From Nitrospirota bacterium (GTDB lineage Bacteria > Nitrospirota > Thermodesulfovibrionia > Thermodesulfovibrionales > JdFR-86): a stretch of 47,654 nt of DNA. The stretch is taken from NCBI GenBank assembly GCA_016207905.1, contig JACQZC010000028.1:1-47654 (forward strand), in the 5' to 3' direction. The stretch's first letter is position 1. Each line of letters begins with the position of its first letter. Below the pieces are notes generated by a model, which was not told the DNA's origin, did no database searches, and saw only the letters and a program-made list of their open reading frames with translations. Shown one piece after another: positions 15,587 to 22,273 of the stretch. Both the position numbers and the translations under genes were made by a program.

Positions 15587-16859
15587 TTATTCGGTGGCAA
15601 AAAAGACAACGGCTTGAATCTTCTTTGTATCCATTATAGCCTGTGCCTTGCTCAATGCGGATTTTTTGCTATATGATTCAGAAGAAAGTACCCTATAAAT
15701 GGTCTTGCCGTCTTTTGAAGTTCCTTTAGAGACGAATGTCTCCTCAGCCTTTGCCTTTAGGTCCAAGACAAGGGAATGTCTCCTCAGCCTTTGCCTTTAG
15801 GTCCAAGACAAGGGCATTTGCGTTTTTCTCGCTTGAAAACGCACCAAACTGAACATAATAAGCTGGTTTTTTAGGAACTTGCCCTTTAAGTTCTATCTGA
15901 GGTGCCTCTATATCTGCCAGTATAACCTCGGGCTCGATTGTAATATGGGGTTTTTTCAAAGGCTTTGATGCAGTATCAGCAGTACTCAGCACTTCAGCAG
16001 GTCTTCTACCTATGTCAACCTGGGGTTTTCTTTGGAGATACCAATAAACCGCAAAACCTAAAACCGCAACAACGAGCACTGCTATCGCAGGCACTCTGAT
16101 ATTACGACTCTTAGAAGAGACTTTCAGTCTTTTTTTCTTTTTAGTACTCTCCTTTTTTCCCAAGACTGGTTCGGATATAGGCGTGAAGACCTCTGCTGTT
16201 TCCTCGGTCTCGGATGGAAAAAACTCATCAGGCTCTTTAATGGGCTTAACAGGCTCTGTTTTGGGCTTTTGTGGAGGAGTGGGTTTTTCTATAATCAGCT
16301 TTTCTTCCTCAGGCATTGCAGATGGCTCTTTTTCGGTCTCCTCGAACATATCTTTTTTTATGATGGGTTCTTTGACCCTGAAGTCCTCGAAGGCTTCTTC
16401 TTGTGGCTCTTCCACCTGTGGTAAATCCCATGTAGTTGACACTACAGGCTCTTCAGGCTCAAAAGGAGGAACCTCTTTTTCTTCAGGCATGGCTAAAGGA
16501 GCAATAATCGAGTTGACCTTTGAGGCAATATCATCCGAAGTGAAAGGTTTTTTTAGAAAATCGACAATGCCATAAAGACTTTTGTATCTTGGGTCGAATT
16601 TACTTTCCCTTATGGTCAAAAGCACAATTGGAGTATCCTTTAAGGCAGGAATATTACGAATAGACTTGCATATCTCAAGCCCTGTGCCTGGGGTTGCAAG
16701 GTTTAGGAATATCAGCAGGGGAGTGACTTTTTTTGCCATTGTAATCGAGGCATCTCCGCTCGATGCGGAAAACACAAGATAGCCTTCCGGCTCTAAAGTT
16801 TTTGAGATTAGCGATGAAGACGCTGTATCATTGTCTATGACGAGAACCGTTTTTTTCAT
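15587..16859 (-). pseudogene. Receiver-like / transmembrane / SPOR fusion, frameshifted by a 40-bp tandem duplication
   Basis: From ATG 16859 the open frame runs 371 residues to 15744. Residues 1-~118 form a receiver-like domain (VIDNDTA at the start, LKKPF near 102) in which the phosphoacceptor Asp is Asn (LIFLNLATPG). Residues ~120-235 are Glu/Pro-rich, a Lys-rich stop precedes one membrane helix (~256-275), and a SPOR domain begins at ~332 (YYVQFGAFSSEKNA). The SPOR domain breaks off at residue ~362. A 40-bp unit is present twice in tandem (15734-15773 and 15774-15813); removing one copy restores the frame into the rest of the domain (ETFVSKGTSKDGK onward, then YRVLSSESYSKKSAL) and a stop at 15587. 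SPOR domains bind glycan strands stripped by amidases. An amidase gene and a MamK-like actin gene lie directly upstream on the same strand. Confidence 0.85.
15734..15813. repeat. 40-bp perfect tandem duplication
   Basis: Two adjacent identical 40-base units, 15734-15773 and 15774-15813, each beginning GAATGTCTCC and ending CAAGACAAGG. Since 40 is not a multiple of three, the second unit shifts the reading frame of the SPOR gene. Confidence 0.97.
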
Positions 16860-16887
16860 AGCGTTACCATTTTAACATATTTCTTTT

Positions 16888-17916
16888 TTAAAGTTGCTCC
16901 CAATATTTCGTTGGCATATCCATTGCAAGTTTTAGTGCTCCGTTTGAGCCTGCATACATAGGGTCTTCAACACATATTACCTTACACTCGCCAAATATAC
17001 CTTTAAGAGATACCTCTAAAGACTGGTTAATGCTCCGAATCTGACTTCCGCCTCCTGCAATGATAATGTTGTTCTTTATCTTTGCCTGAAACTCAGGGTC
17101 AAACCTTGCAACCATAAGAGAGACCGTCTCTATAATAGGCGGAAGAATGCTCTCGCAGGCTCTCTTTAGCTCGTTTGTTATGTCATGCATAATAGGCTTT
17201 CCCTCGACTGGCAATTCAACCTGAACAATGCTGGTCGCATTGCCTACGAAGGAGTGTTTTTCTTTGTATTGTCTAACCATGTTTACATTGAACTTTGAGC
17301 CGGGGTATTTCTCGGAAAGATAGCTGAAAAGCTGTTCGTCGATATAGTCGCCTGCAGTAAACAGGGTCTTTTGGTCTTCCTCTGTTGGCATGGCGCCATG
17401 CATAATGCAGAGGTCCACTGTTCCTGCTCCAATGTCTATTATCATTGCGTTATTGAGAAGGTCTAACCCATAAGCAACTGCAAAGGGCTCTGTAACGACC
17501 ATCAGGGAGCTCACATAGCCTGAAACCGCTTTTCTGATGGCAAGCTTGTTGACCTTAAGTGTGTCAGCAGGCACTCCAACTATTGCATAAATCTTTTGCT
17601 CTTTCGAGGGCTTTGCAATCTGTATAAGATGTCCGATTAGCTCTCTAACAGCCTCTTCGTTTCTCTCGATGCCCTCCTTTATGACGCCCCGCTCAAGAGG
17701 CCTGTAAAGCTCGAGAGATAGCCTGTTTTCAAGGGCATCGGAGCCAAAAAGTATGCTCTTTCCTACAACCTTTGCCGATATAAAGTCCCTTGGCCATCCG
17801 ACATAGCTCTGAACCCATTCCCTCTTGCCATTGCTTGCCGAGACAGAGCTTCTCGATGTGCCAAGGTCTATTCCAACATACAGGATGTTATTGCCTGTTT
17901 CCTCTTTTTGCTTCAT
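16888..17916 (-). CDS. mamK: MamK-like bacterial actin
   Basis: 342 residues, close to MamK length. The actin ATPase motifs are in order: phosphate-1 YVGIDLGTSRSSV (~14-26), connect-1 IGVPADTLKVNK, phosphate-2 MIIDIGAGTVDLCI (~158-171), and adenosine motif IIIAGGGSQI near residue 288. Features shared with MamK rather than MreB or ParM, from memory of the family, are VGWPRDFI after strand 3, the PLERGVIKE block, TAGDYIDEQL and the closing PTKYWEQL. MamK forms cytoplasmic filaments that line up magnetosomes in magnetotactic bacteria; related genes also occur in non-magnetotactic genomes. No other mam gene is in the window. Its start lies inside the amidase gene (29-base overlap) and the receiver-SPOR gene follows 28 bases after its stop, which suggests a cell-wall or division role here. 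Confidence 0.82.
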   Translation of the reverse strand: MKQKEETGNNILYVGIDLGTSRSSVSASNGKREWVQSYVGWPRDFISAKVVGKSILFGSDALENRLSLELYRPLERGVIKEGIERNEEAVRELIGHLIQIAKPSKEQKIYAIVGVPADTLKVNKLAIRKAVSGYVSSLMVVTEPFAVAYGLDLLNNAMIIDIGAGTVDLCIMHGAMPTEEDQKTLFTAGDYIDEQLFSYLSEKYPGSKFNVNMVRQYKEKHSFVGNATSIVQVELPVEGKPIMHDITNELKRACESILPPIIETVSLMVARFDPEFQAKIKNNIIIAGGGSQIRSINQSLEVSLKGIFGECKVICVEDPMYAGSNGALKLAMDMPTKYWEQL

Positions 17917-18931
17917 ATGTTGTTTCTCCTTTTTTCATATAATTTAGTATTCCATATTCAAGGTATCTGGCTATGTCGTTTCTGTAATTGTCTGTATGCA
18001 GTTTCAGCTCCTCCTGCTTGTTGCTAAGGCATGAGACCTCTGTTAGCACTCCTGGCATCTCTATGCCAAGGAGCACCATAAAGGGCGCCCTCTTTATGCC
18101 ATAATTAAAGACCCTACTACCCTGACCTCTGATATTAAAATAAAGACTGTCCTGAATGAAAGATGCAAATTTTCTGGACTCCTCCTGCTTCAATGTATCA
18201 CCTATCTTTTCAATGACCTCCTTGAACTCGCTTAGCCTGTAATGGGAGTCTGCATTTTCCTTTGCGGCAAGCTGAAGAGTTTCGTCATCTGCCGAGGGGC
18301 CAAAATAGTAGGTTTCAATCATGTTTATAGGTTTTGAAGGCAGATAATTGACATGTATAGAGATGAAAAGGTCAGCCATATTGGAGTTTGCAATCTCTAT
18401 CCTTTTTGTAAGGGGAATCGTCTCGTCTCTGTTTCTTGTAAGAAGGATATTGAAGTCTCCATGAAGCTCAAGCCTTGCTTTAAGCTTTAAGGCTATGTCT
18501 AAGGCAATGTCCTTTTCCATAATTCCGAGACCGCCTCTTGTGCCCGGGTCAGAGCCGCCATGTCCGGGGTCTATGACAATCGTCTTTACGCCAAGACCAA
18601 ACATCTGCTTTACAGGTATCTCCTTTTTCTCAAGCATGGAAAGATACTCAGACGGAATGACTCTTTCTTCTGCTGAGGAATGAGGTTCACTGTTTTTTAT
18701 AGGAGAAACACTGATTGTTTGAGTTTCATTGGAAAAGTAAAAAGTCGAATTCAGAAAATCCGCATTGCCTATAACCACTAATATCATGATATAGAGGAAT
18801 AGGAAGTGCCCTCTCAGGAAAATGGGCATTTTCCATGATACAGTCGGGTTTTTTCCGACAATCCTTAGGTTATCCTCATATACTGCCTTGAGGATTGTGT
18901 GCCTGCCTTTTCTCAGTCTTGTAAAAAGCAT
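17888..18931 (-). CDS. N-acetylmuramoyl-L-alanine amidase (Amidase_3), membrane-anchored
   Basis: 347 residues. A single hydrophobic segment (~38-60) acts as signal anchor after a ~37-residue charged N-terminus. The catalytic domain (~112-335) has the zinc motifs of the AmiC/CwlM type: VIDPGHGGSDPG (first His), an early Glu in MEKDIALDIA, SIHVNYLPS (second His) and the late Glu in GVLTEVSCLSN. It cleaves the bond between N-acetylmuramic acid and the stem peptide in the periplasm, leaving the bare glycan that SPOR domains bind. The last 29 bases overlap the start of the MamK-like gene. No separate AMIN domain is evident. The exact start is uncertain because no strong ribosome site precedes it. 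Confidence 0.9.
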   Translation of the reverse strand: MLFTRLRKGRHTILKAVYEDNLRIVGKNPTVSWKMPIFLRGHFLFLYIMILVVIGNADFLNSTFYFSNETQTISVSPIKNSEPHSSAEERVIPSEYLSMLEKKEIPVKQMFGLGVKTIVIDPGHGGSDPGTRGGLGIMEKDIALDIALKLKARLELHGDFNILLTRNRDETIPLTKRIEIANSNMADLFISIHVNYLPSKPINMIETYYFGPSADDETLQLAAKENADSHYRLSEFKEVIEKIGDTLKQEESRKFASFIQDSLYFNIRGQGSRVFNYGIKRAPFMVLLGIEMPGVLTEVSCLSNKQEELKLHTDNYRNDIARYLEYGILNYMKKGETTYEAKRGNRQ

Positions 18932-19121
18932 TCTCTATTATCTAAAAAACCTCTTAAAGTATCAAGAGGAAAATTATCTTAAAACAATAGAATTATTCCA
19001 TAAAGGCATTGGGGAATTCAAGGGGGCGAGGGGAGATTATTGAATTATCTCAAATTCATATGTGTTGAACCCATACAGGGGGGTTGGACAGAGAAATCCG
19101 AAAAATGTTAATTTCTATACT

Positions 19122-20441
19122 ATGAAGAAGTTTTCCATAACCACATTTGGCTGTCAGATGAATGTGCATGATTCAGAAAAAATCGCAGGGCTTCTCTGCA
19201 AACAGGGAATGAGCCAGACCGAAGACAAAAAAGATGCAGACCTCATAGTATTTAACACCTGTTCCATAAGGCAAAAGGCTGAGCAGAAATTCCTAAGCGA
19301 GCTTGGAAAAACTAAATCCCTTAAAAGAGGAATGCCTACCCTTAAGATTGCAGTTACAGGCTGTATAGCCCAGCAAATGGGTGAGAAACTATTCAAAAAG
19401 GCACCGTATGTGGATTATGTGCTTGGCACTCAGAATATTCATCTAATCAGTGACCTCATAAAGGGAAATACCTGTAAATCCGCACTCAATGACAATCCAT
19501 TTATTTCAGAGCAGAAACTACCTACTCTTAGAAAGGAAAAATTCAGGGCATGGGTCTCCATAATGTATGGCTGTAATAATTTCTGTAGTTACTGCGTAGT
19601 CCCATATACAAGGGGCAGGGAGACTTGTAGAAGCACTGAAAACATACTTAAAGAGATAAAAGAGCTTGTAGGGGAAGGCGTGAAAGAGGTAACCCTTCTT
19701 GGACAGAATGTAAACTCATATAGCTCTGATACGGATTTCCCCGGACTTCTCGAGAAAATAAATGCAATCCCCGGGCTTGAGAGGCTCAGGTTTGTTACAT
19801 CACATCCAAAGGACCTCTCGGATAAGCTTATAACTTCGATGGAAAGCCTCGATAAGGTCTGCGAGCACATACATTTACCCTTACAATCAGGCTCAACAAG
19901 AATCCTTAGCCTTATGAACAGGGGATATTCATATGAGGAGTATAAGATAAAGGTGGATAAGCTAAGGCAGGCTATTCCTGATATAGCAATAACATCCGAT
20001 ATAATTGCAGGGTTTCCTCATGAGACAGACAAAGACCATGAAGATACGATTAATGCTCTTAGAGAAATCGAATTCGACGGGATATTTGCCTTTAAGTTCT
20101 CTCTAAGGCCTGGCACAAAAGCCTCTTTAATGGAAAGACATATCCCTGAGCACATAAAGGCAGAAAGGCTTTCCGAGATACTTAAACTTCAGGATGAAAT
20201 CACGCTTATGAAAAATAAAGAGCTTGAGGGTAGGGCGGTAGATGTTCTCATAGAAGGCATTAGCAAAACGAATCCAGCCTTGCAAACAGGAAGGACGAGG
20301 GGAAATAAGATAGTGAACTTTAGTGTTATAGATAAAGAAAGAAAATTTCTTCTTAAAGAGGGGTCATTGACCCAAGTTAAGATAATAAGGGCGAGGAGGC
20401 ATTCACTTGAGGGGGATGGAGTCCTTAAAGGTTCAACCTGA
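19122..20441 (+). CDS. miaB: tRNA-2-methylthio-N6-dimethylallyladenosine synthase MiaB
   Basis: 439 residues from ATG 19122; an in-frame start at 19062 would add 20 residues without family similarity. The N-terminal cluster domain has Cys in TFGCQMNVHDSE, FNTCSIR and VTGCIAQ; the radical-SAM domain has CNNFCSYC; a TRAM domain is at the C-terminus (VLIEGISKTN). QMN after the first Cys distinguishes MiaB from MtaB and RimO. It adds the methylthio group at A37 of tRNAs reading UNN codons, using S-adenosylmethionine and iron-sulfur clusters. Its last 17 bases overlap the end of hicA on the other strand. Confidence 0.96.
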   Translation: MKKFSITTFGCQMNVHDSEKIAGLLCKQGMSQTEDKKDADLIVFNTCSIRQKAEQKFLSELGKTKSLKRGMPTLKIAVTGCIAQQMGEKLFKKAPYVDYVLGTQNIHLISDLIKGNTCKSALNDNPFISEQKLPTLRKEKFRAWVSIMYGCNNFCSYCVVPYTRGRETCRSTENILKEIKELVGEGVKEVTLLGQNVNSYSSDTDFPGLLEKINAIPGLERLRFVTSHPKDLSDKLITSMESLDKVCEHIHLPLQSGSTRILSLMNRGYSYEEYKIKVDKLRQAIPDIAITSDIIAGFPHETDKDHEDTINALREIEFDGIFAFKFSLRPGTKASLMERHIPEHIKAERLSEILKLQDEITLMKNKELEGRAVDVLIEGISKTNPALQTGRTRGNKIVNFSVIDKERKFLLKEGSLTQVKIIRARRHSLEGDGVLKGST

Positions 20442-20664
20442 TTCTTATAAAGTCCTCTATGCTTAACCCCGCGCCTTCGAGGATTCTTCTGAATGTCTTG
20501 GGCCTTATGATTTCTCCTGAATGATAAGAAACTATCGTCTGTCTTCCCGAAAGGGGATGTCTCCATTTCTGATGACTTCCGGACTGGTCTACTTTTTCAA
20601 ATCCAAGGGACTTTAAAACCCTTATTATTTCATCGGCGGTTACACGGGGCTGTTTTTGTCCCAT
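20425..20664 (-). CDS. hicA: HicA-type mRNA interferase toxin
   Basis: 79 residues. RVTADEIIRVLKSLGFEKV, then QSGSHQKWRHP and TIVSYHSGEIIRPKTFRRIL, is the HicA double-stranded-RNA-binding-like fold; the His in G-S-H (residue 31) is the catalytic residue in the family. HicA cleaves mRNA when not bound by HicB. Its start shares one base with the end of hicB, giving the order antitoxin then toxin. The 3' end overlaps the 3' end of miaB by 17 bases tail to tail, a sign of a compact insertion point between miaB and mtaB. Confidence 0.92.
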   Translation of the reverse strand: MGQKQPRVTADEIIRVLKSLGFEKVDQSGSHQKWRHPLSGRQTIVSYHSGEIIRPKTFRRILEGAGLSIEDFIRIRLNL

Positions 20665-20858
20665 CAGACAGCGACCTCAAAAACCTTTGCATCCTTTGAG
20701 AGTCCTTCCTTTGTGGGCCTCAAGTAGAGCTCGAGGGCTTCCATGATGTTTTTGCGGGCTTCTTCTTCAGTCTTTCCATATGTCACACAGCCGGGCAGTT
20801 CGGGACAGTATGCAACAAATACATCCTCATCGGGTTCAATTACCACTCTGATATTCAT
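20664..20858 (-). CDS. hicB: HicB-type antitoxin
   Basis: 64 residues. The family signature is clear: IEPDEDVFVAYCPELPGCVTYGKTEEEARKNIMEAL. It has the RNase-H-like HicB fold but no added DNA-binding domain (length is too short), so autoregulation would need HicA or another factor. It neutralises the HicA toxin encoded immediately downstream. GGGGTG lies just upstream of its ATG at 20858. Confidence 0.92.
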   Translation of the reverse strand: MNIRVVIEPDEDVFVAYCPELPGCVTYGKTEEEARKNIMEALELYLRPTKEGLSKDAKVFEVAV

Positions 20859-21010
20859 AATTCACCCCCTTTTTTCTTTCTGCATTTTCTAATTCTAACA
20901 TAAACGGGCTTGGCGTTTGTCTCTTAAGTTTTTCCCAGAGGGGATATTTGGAATATAAGGCGATTTTCATGCTTGAGAAATTTCAGGTCTAAGTTTTAGT
21001 ATAATATCAA

Positions 21011-22273
21011 ATGAATGGCATGCCGATGAGAGTCTCTCTTTTAACCTTAGGCTGTAAAGTAAATCAGGCTGAGACCTCACTTATGGAAGGGATACTTAGA
21101 GGCTCAGGGTTTAAGGTTGTGGGGCTTGATGAGAAACCTGAGCTATGCATTATCAATACCTGCACAGTTACCTCAAAAAGCGATTACCAATCCAGACAGC
21201 TTATAAGAAGGGCATATAAGGTAGGTGCTAAGGTCATCGTAACAGGCTGTTACTCAGAGCTTAATATGGAGAATGTAAAAAATATGCCTGAAGTAAAGGA
21301 AGTGGTATTAAATAAAGATAAATTTAATTATATCAGCATGTTAATAGGAAATAATGGAAGTATTACATTAAATTATTCAGGAGCTCGCACAAGGTTTTTC
21401 CTAAAGGTTCAGGATGGTTGTAACTCATGCTGTAGCTATTGCGTAATACCAAAGGCAAGGGGTAGCTCAAGGAGTGTAGAAATGGATAAGGTAATAGGTG
21501 AGGTTAAAAGGGCTGTCTGCTTTGGGTACAAGGAGATTGTTCTTACAGGGATTCATCTTGGTGTATATGGAGAGGACTTAAAGCCAAAAATTAACTTATC
21601 AGGACTTATCGAATCCATCCTTAATGAGACCACAATTGAAAGGCTCAGGCTAAGCTCTATCGAGATAACAGAGATAGATGACAATCTTATAAGGCTTTTT
21701 CTTCAAAAAGACAAGAGGCTTTGCAGGCACCTTCATATACCTTTACAAAGTGGCGATAACAGGATACTAAGCCTGATGAACAGAGATTATACTATAGAGT
21801 ATTATCAGGCTCGGCTCAGACACATAAGCAGTTACCTGCCTGATAGTGCATTTGGCACTGACATAATTGTAGGATTTCCCGGAGAGGGCAATGAAGAGTT
21901 TATGAATACCATTAGGGTCTCGGAAAACCTTCCTTTTTCATATATTCATGTGTTTCCTTTCTCTCTGAGAAAAGGAACTAAGGCATGTGAAATGCCTGAT
22001 ATTATTACGGATTTAGAAAAGAAAAATCGTTGCACCCAGTTAAGAGGGCTTTCTGAAAGGAAAAAACAGGACTATATGCTTGGGCATATCGGCAAAACCC
22101 TTGATGTTCTTATAGAAAAAAGGTATGCCGATGGATTTAGTCGTGGAACTACAAGTAATTACCTGAAAGTAGAGGTATCATCCGTGACACTCAAAAGAGG
22201 AAGCGTTGTGCCTGTAAGAGTTACTGGGGCAGGCAAAGGAGTGCTTTTAGGTAATCCCTTAAATTGTTCTTAA
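21011..22273 (+). CDS. mtaB: tRNA t6A37 methylthiotransferase MtaB
   Basis: 420 residues. Cys motifs in order: TLGCKVNQAETS, INTCTVTSKSDYQSRQ, VTGCYSE, then the radical-SAM motif in DGCNSCCSYCVIPKARG. The K-V-N-Q after the first Cys points to MtaB rather than MiaB. It methylthiolates N6-threonylcarbamoyladenosine at position 37 of tRNAs decoding ANN codons. The start may be 21011 or ATG 21026 (MRVSLLTLG). A TATAAT at 21000-21005 ends only 5 bases before 21011, so transcripts would be leaderless unless translation begins at 21026. The gene stands alone; 22274-22444 has no gene but an AT-rich hairpin. Confidence 0.92.
   Translation: MNGMPMRVSLLTLGCKVNQAETSLMEGILRGSGFKVVGLDEKPELCIINTCTVTSKSDYQSRQLIRRAYKVGAKVIVTGCYSELNMENVKNMPEVKEVVLNKDKFNYISMLIGNNGSITLNYSGARTRFFLKVQDGCNSCCSYCVIPKARGSSRSVEMDKVIGEVKRAVCFGYKEIVLTGIHLGVYGEDLKPKINLSGLIESILNETTIERLRLSSIEITEIDDNLIRLFLQKDKRLCRHLHIPLQSGDNRILSLMNRDYTIEYYQARLRHISSYLPDSAFGTDIIVGFPGEGNEEFMNTIRVSENLPFSYIHVFPFSLRKGTKACEMPDIITDLEKKNRCTQLRGLSERKKQDYMLGHIGKTLDVLIEKRYADGFSRGTTSNYLKVEVSSVTLKRGSVVPVRVTGAGKGVLLGNPLNCS

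Follow-up and report, generated by a model that had tools for sequence, protein, structure and literature searches.

The stretch of DNA analysed here, referred to as the window, comprises 47,654 nucleotides of contig JACQZC010000028.1 from the Nitrospirota genome assembly GCA_016207905.1. Three genes on its minus strand form one operon and are read in the order amidase, actin and receiver-TM-SPOR protein (Table 1). A preliminary description of the sequence had proposed this gene content, and Pfam and NCBIfam domain matches to ORFs on the same strand confirm it. The same gene trio is present at the locus of the nearest relative (L065). The window actin reaches 430 bits with the NCBIfam MamK model, the cut-off of which is 400 bits, and it also matches MreB_Mbl (1.8e-22). 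No mam genes were detected among the ORFs around the operon and the window genome gave no MamP match, in line with the earlier statement that no other mam gene is present here. Next to the operon (19062-22273) lie two closely spaced genes which, judged from their translations, encode MiaB/MtaB-like methylthiotransferases.

Table 1. Features of the operon, with positions in the window.
Feature	Position	Strand	Basis
Amidase gene, 347 aa, predicted bitopic AmiA/B/C-like N-acetylmuramoyl-L-alanine amidase	17888..18931	-	Pfam Amidase_3, E 1.9e-41
Conserved motif in the predicted cytoplasmic tail of the amidase, a candidate helix for actin docking (KGRHTILKAVYEDNLRIVGK; consensus across the family ILRGVYExNLR)	18851..18910	-	ortholog alignment
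Amidase transmembrane helix, residues 38-60	18752..18820	-	predicted helix; family hydropathy and positive-inside bias
Predicted periplasmic amidase domain; insertion (residues 216-242) at the position of the regulatory helix of AmiA/B/C	17921..18583	-	structure model, alignments
Amidase/actin reading-frame overlap, 29 nt	17888..17916	-	overlap kept across the family, commonest 32 nt
MamK-family actin gene, 342 aa, amidase-linked clade	16888..17916	-	NCBIfam MamK, 430 bits
Receiver-TM-SPOR gene, 371 aa as far as the frameshift	15744..16859	-	Response_reg 2.2e-14, partial SPOR 6.4e-5
Degenerate receiver domain, with Asn53 in place of the phospho-acceptor Asp	16485..16859	-	acceptor column of 32 sequences
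Exact 40-bp tandem duplication shifting the SPOR frame	15734..15814	-	Tandem Repeats Finder, 2.0 copies, 100% match
Out-of-frame SPOR remainder	15587..15733	-	translation in the other frame stays SPOR-like to a stop

Conservation of the amidase-actin pair

The distribution of the operon within the phylum was assessed by scanning 296 Nitrospirota genomes with the NCBIfam MamK model. Matches were obtained in 38 genomes, which divide cleanly by gene neighbourhood into 14 with a magnetosome-type locus and 24, including the window genome, with the amidase-actin pair. Identity between the window actin and the other actins of the pair is 63-78%. An independent scan of the same 296 genomes with a profile of the operon amidase matched exactly the 24 actin genomes, with scores of 421-502 bits as compared to 281 bits for the next best protein. 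No genome contained both magnetosome MamK and the operon, an absence of overlap that is about what chance predicts for 14 and 24 out of 296 genomes, and mutual exclusion is not claimed.

A wider scan of 84,980 species yielded 109 relatives, of which 80 were kept. These relatives are mostly metagenome bins, and a few of their taxon labels look wrong. The carriers are labelled as Nitrospirota, Desulfobulbaceae and other "Deltaproteobacteria" (including strain NaphS2), Gammaproteobacteria including Chromatiales, Azoarcus, Nitrosomonadales and Aminicenantes. The amidase gene is located directly upstream of the actin gene in all 80 kept relatives, while the remaining flanking genes vary between loci. 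When all loci are counted, 85 of the 86 distinct clade actins have an amidase within the distance limits upstream, and the remaining one (L107) falls outside these limits solely because the start of its actin ORF was placed too far upstream. With the farthest-upstream start codons, the spacing between the two genes is mostly -4 to -98 nt (commonest -32), with a single case of +19. The actins of L107 and L101, labelled Rokuibacteriota and Syntrophaceae, respectively, are nested within the Nitrospirota clade; these records are probably mislabelled or contaminated bins, or reflect a recent transfer.

The gene order is thus kept far beyond chance, and the search for it in other genomes did not give the lack of conservation that the preliminary description had named as speaking against its proposal. 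The three-gene set described there is conserved as an operon, but its core is smaller. A receiver-SPOR gene was seen in Nitrospirota only, and even there it is recognisable after the pair in just 17 of the 24 carrier genomes. The universal unit therefore consists of two genes, amidase and actin, and not of three.

Amidase tail and third protein

Amidase_3 was matched in 30 of 30 amidase orthologs and is the only domain of the protein that Pfam recognised. The best structural match of the amidase in Foldseek was E. coli AmiA (8c2o, E 2.2e-18, TMt 0.83). The catalytic and zinc residues D121, H124, E139, H193 and E298 are invariant among the 30 orthologs. The protein thus has the fold, zinc ligands and catalytic Glu of the AmiA/B/C amidases, but neither their signal peptide nor the AMIN-type domain of AmiB/C. 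The two helices of the insertion (residues 216-226 and 233-242), modelled at lower to moderate confidence, were placed by alignment to AmiC (4bin) and a Bartonella amidase (3ne8). In AmiA/B/C, the helix at this position is autoinhibitory until an activator releases it.

In place of a signal peptide, the N-terminus carries a charged tail with a predicted helix at residues 2-24, followed by the transmembrane helix. The family mean net charge is +4.6 before this helix and -0.4 after it. The operon amidase is thus predicted to be a bitopic membrane protein, unlike the ordinary secreted AmiC that the genome also has. Within the tail motif, N21 is invariant and L14 is conserved in at least 90% of the 30 orthologs. 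The strict motif pattern was found in 78 of 86 operon amidases as compared to 4 of 1957 other ORFs; seven of the eight operon amidases outside the pattern are near variants and one is truncated. In a comparison of nine carrier genomes, all nine operon amidases had the tail and none of the AmiC-type or other amidases did, apart from a single match by chance when the pattern was loosened. The AmiC-type paralogs of carrier genomes begin with a signal-peptide-like sequence. Three or four Amidase_3 genes are present in each of the nine carriers, and two in each of three checked genomes lacking a clade actin. A search of eight genomes with the tail for other tail-bearing clients retrieved only operon amidases; in the three most distant genomes, the query was too short to recover even those amidases that are known.

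Since a predicted cytoplasmic tail is conserved across phyla on a periplasmic enzyme that is always encoded together with an actin, we consider it a candidate actin-docking site, and docking of the operon actin appears to be its best explanation. The conserved tail could instead serve membrane insertion or a different partner.

The third protein of the window matches the SPOR profile only at positions 3-30 of 76, because the 40-bp duplication shifts the reading frame and the ORF stops at 15744. This duplication is either a real mutation or an error of the assembly, which is a draft of 98 contigs. As the SPOR frame is broken, the third protein may be non-functional in the window genome. Among its relatives, 31 of 32 scanned sequences have an intact SPOR domain and the remaining one (L079) is cut by the contig end. 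In the structure model of the ortholog L078, the receiver (residues 1-127) and the SPOR domain (336-408) are of high confidence, the transmembrane helix spans residues 232-253 and the linkers are disordered. The orthologs thus have the bitopic layout with a C-terminal SPOR domain of FtsN-type proteins, while the window copy is frameshifted.

The phospho-acceptor column of the receiver contains N in 18 of the 32 sequences, K and S in four each, R in three, E in two and D in one. Since the acceptor Asp is lost in 31 of 32 sequences, the domain looks like a pseudo-receiver that is more likely to act as an adaptor than as a switch, and a role as phosphorylation switch was rejected for the family. 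The SPOR protein with a receiver-like domain named in the preliminary description was recovered by the Response_reg and SPOR matches, but with a frameshifted SPOR domain in the window assembly and a degenerate receiver. In one Nitrospirota family (f11; L106:7018-7773, also L048), the third slot is occupied by a receiver-PilZ protein instead of the receiver-TM-SPOR protein, which suggests a c-di-GMP input.

The window genome also encodes FtsA, MreB (with its gene located elsewhere), an AmiC-type amidase and two further SPOR proteins. The operon is therefore an extra system in addition to this standard set. Replacement of FtsA, MreB or AmiC by the operon was rejected, as all of them are present in the genome.

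Proposed coupling of filament and amidase

We regard it as somewhat probable that the operon encodes a dedicated module for filament-guided wall cutting. The MamK-type actin would polymerise in the cytoplasm, and the amidase, bitopic in the inner membrane, would dock on the filament via its conserved cytoplasmic helix, so that the filament concentrates and positions the amidase domains in the periplasm. Because a candidate AmiA/B/C-like regulatory insertion is present, the amidase is probably gated, its activity depending on clustering or on the binding of an activator. It would then strip peptides off the glycan at the place set by the filament, which could be the septum, a pole or the lateral wall. 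In Nitrospirota, the third bitopic protein might add a feedback: its SPOR domain is expected to bind denuded glycan, and the non-phosphorylatable receiver-like domain could be an adaptor to a cytoplasmic partner, probably the filament. On this view it is the hydrolase that would be suspended from the filament, with the SPOR protein as an optional second tie. Operation would resemble that of FtsN, which joins FtsA to denuded glycan, and would proceed alongside normal FtsA, MreB and AmiC. The coupling of cytoplasmic filaments to the wall proposed in the preliminary description fits this anatomy. The most direct candidate link is the amidase itself, by way of a conserved, predicted cytoplasmic tail and a transmembrane helix, neither of which had been remarked on there.

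The SPOR protein could instead be the true link between actin and wall, with the amidase tail merely a signal anchor. FtsN has the same layout, a short cytoplasmic domain, a transmembrane helix and a SPOR domain, and binds both FtsA and the glycan that amidases have denuded, which gives a self-enhancing loop (PMC9426451), and receiver, transmembrane helix and SPOR domain are common to the Nitrospirota orthologs. Such a septal loop is unlikely to account for the operon, because the amidase-actin pair persists in phyla without the receiver-SPOR gene, and a plain signal anchor would hardly keep specific residues such as the invariant N21 across phyla. Slightly less likely again is that the filament guides local wall opening at a pole or for an envelope-spanning machine such as a pilus, flagellum or secretion system, and not division. 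The normal division and elongation proteins beside the operon and the receiver-PilZ protein of one lineage would fit this, but no recurring machine genes were recognised in the flanks, which vary by locus. The translational overlap alone could also mean that the two genes are coupled only in expression, in a cell-wall operon of the ordinary kind whose actin serves another task and does not contact the amidase. The exclusive pairing across phyla while the flanks change, as well as the unusual cytoplasmic tail of the amidase, make such mere co-regulation quite improbable.

Relation to MamK and other wall-directed systems

Among the clade actins, D161 shows no variation and E143 almost none. In MamK and other actins, ATPase activity and filament dynamics are lost when the equivalent residues are exchanged (PMC5059902). 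Eleven positions, among them W34, W41 and F45, separate the amidase-linked actins from magnetosome-type MamK. In a tree that also included BeeR, MreB and magnetosome-type MamK from three phyla, the amidase-linked actins are monophyletic (support 100/100), and the group nearest to them is the Nitrospirota-type magnetosome MamK (98/89). The clade may branch either within MamK or beside it: a topology with all MamK in one clade gave an AU p of 0.21, and the outgroup branches are long. MamP was found in none of 21 carrier genomes tested, as compared to 7 of 7 magnetosome-type genomes. The magnetochrome domain PF18509 had no match in the window genome, but none in the controls either, and was not used. 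The operon-type amidase was found beside none of the magnetosome-type MamK loci; one of these (L039) encodes MamM above cut-off as well as MamP-, MamB- and MamQ-like proteins.

The window actin thus passes the curated sequence cut-off for MamK, but it is neither located in or with a magnetosome cluster nor grouped inside a magnetosome clade. The tree places it outside these clades, contrary to the firm position within them, together with mam genes elsewhere in the genome, that the preliminary description had named as a possible refutation. That the actin is a remnant or displaced magnetosome gene, as its MamK score and nearest tree neighbours might suggest, is highly improbable and largely refuted by the MamP distribution and the separate clade, and an amidase of this kind adjoins no magnetosome-type MamK. 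Since the amidase-linked actins score above its cut-off, the current NCBIfam MamK model NF040964 can lead to a magnetosome gene being called in a genome lacking MamP.

Further MamK-like actins were noted. One deep clade (L203, L204:12301, L205) comes from genomes sampled from the Pseudomonadota (phylum of G297); large ORFs (788-893 aa) are located in the vicinity of its members, and two of its genomes (G411, G451) each have another MamK-type actin. Divergent MamK-like actin genes standing close together (L209, L210, L211) occur in three genomes of a sample from the Desulfobulbaceae phylum (phylum of G298). Genome G152 carries two magnetosome-type MamK genes (L045, L046) on contigs different from that of MamP.

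In the open-access literature, we found no paper linking MamK with an amidase in this sense, the sole co-mention being an insect study, nor did searches on SPOR, actin and amidase bring up a system of this kind. To our knowledge, wall-acting bacterial actins work via scaffold proteins or synthases. In this operon, the partner of the actin is instead a hydrolase, itself predicted to extend into the cytoplasm. If its tail binds the filament, two proteins would be enough to convert filament position into wall cutting. The pairing suggests an undescribed way of aiming wall cutting with an internal filament. MamK-type actins would thereby gain a role outside magnetosomes, and the origin of magnetosome MamK becomes a testable question. 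More tentatively, and with a chance we place below even, several phyla may share a further bacterial actin system, in which the filament docks a transmembrane amidase by a cytoplasmic helix and its geometry is passed on to wall cutting, and MamK, a close relative, may have been recruited from such a wall-directed actin.

When compared with known systems, the window actin shares its family and ATPase residues with MamK of AMB-1 (5LJV), the structures of which it matches with about 300 bits (E ~1e-88). The amidase-linked actins differ from MamK in their own clade, their amidase partner, the absence of MamP and in W34, W41 and F45, which are typical of that clade only. BeeR (8r2n) is the next nearest solved actin (158 bits to the window actin), but the window actin reaches only 225 bits, far under the BeeR cut-off of 530. 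Staphylococcus aureus LytH-ActH consists of a membrane-anchored amidase activated by a partner; LytH-ActH shares the Amidase_3 fold, and 7tj4 is among the structural matches of the operon amidase. Any activator of the operon amidase would be a different one, and we know of no actin partner of LytH-ActH. In the MreB-RodZ elongasome, a membrane-linked actin guides wall enzymes, whereas the enzyme of the operon is a hydrolase, the gene of which adjoins that of the actin. The septal loop of FtsA, FtsN and AmiA/B/C likewise combines an actin homolog, a bitopic SPOR protein and an amidase making denuded glycan (PMC9426451). In contrast to this loop, the operon encodes a MamK-type actin, a receiver-like cytoplasmic domain and a predicted membrane-anchored amidase with a cytoplasmic tail, all in a single operon and in addition to the standard set. 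It may thus be a new variant among wall-directed actin systems, and possibly a separate kind if contact between tail and filament is proved.
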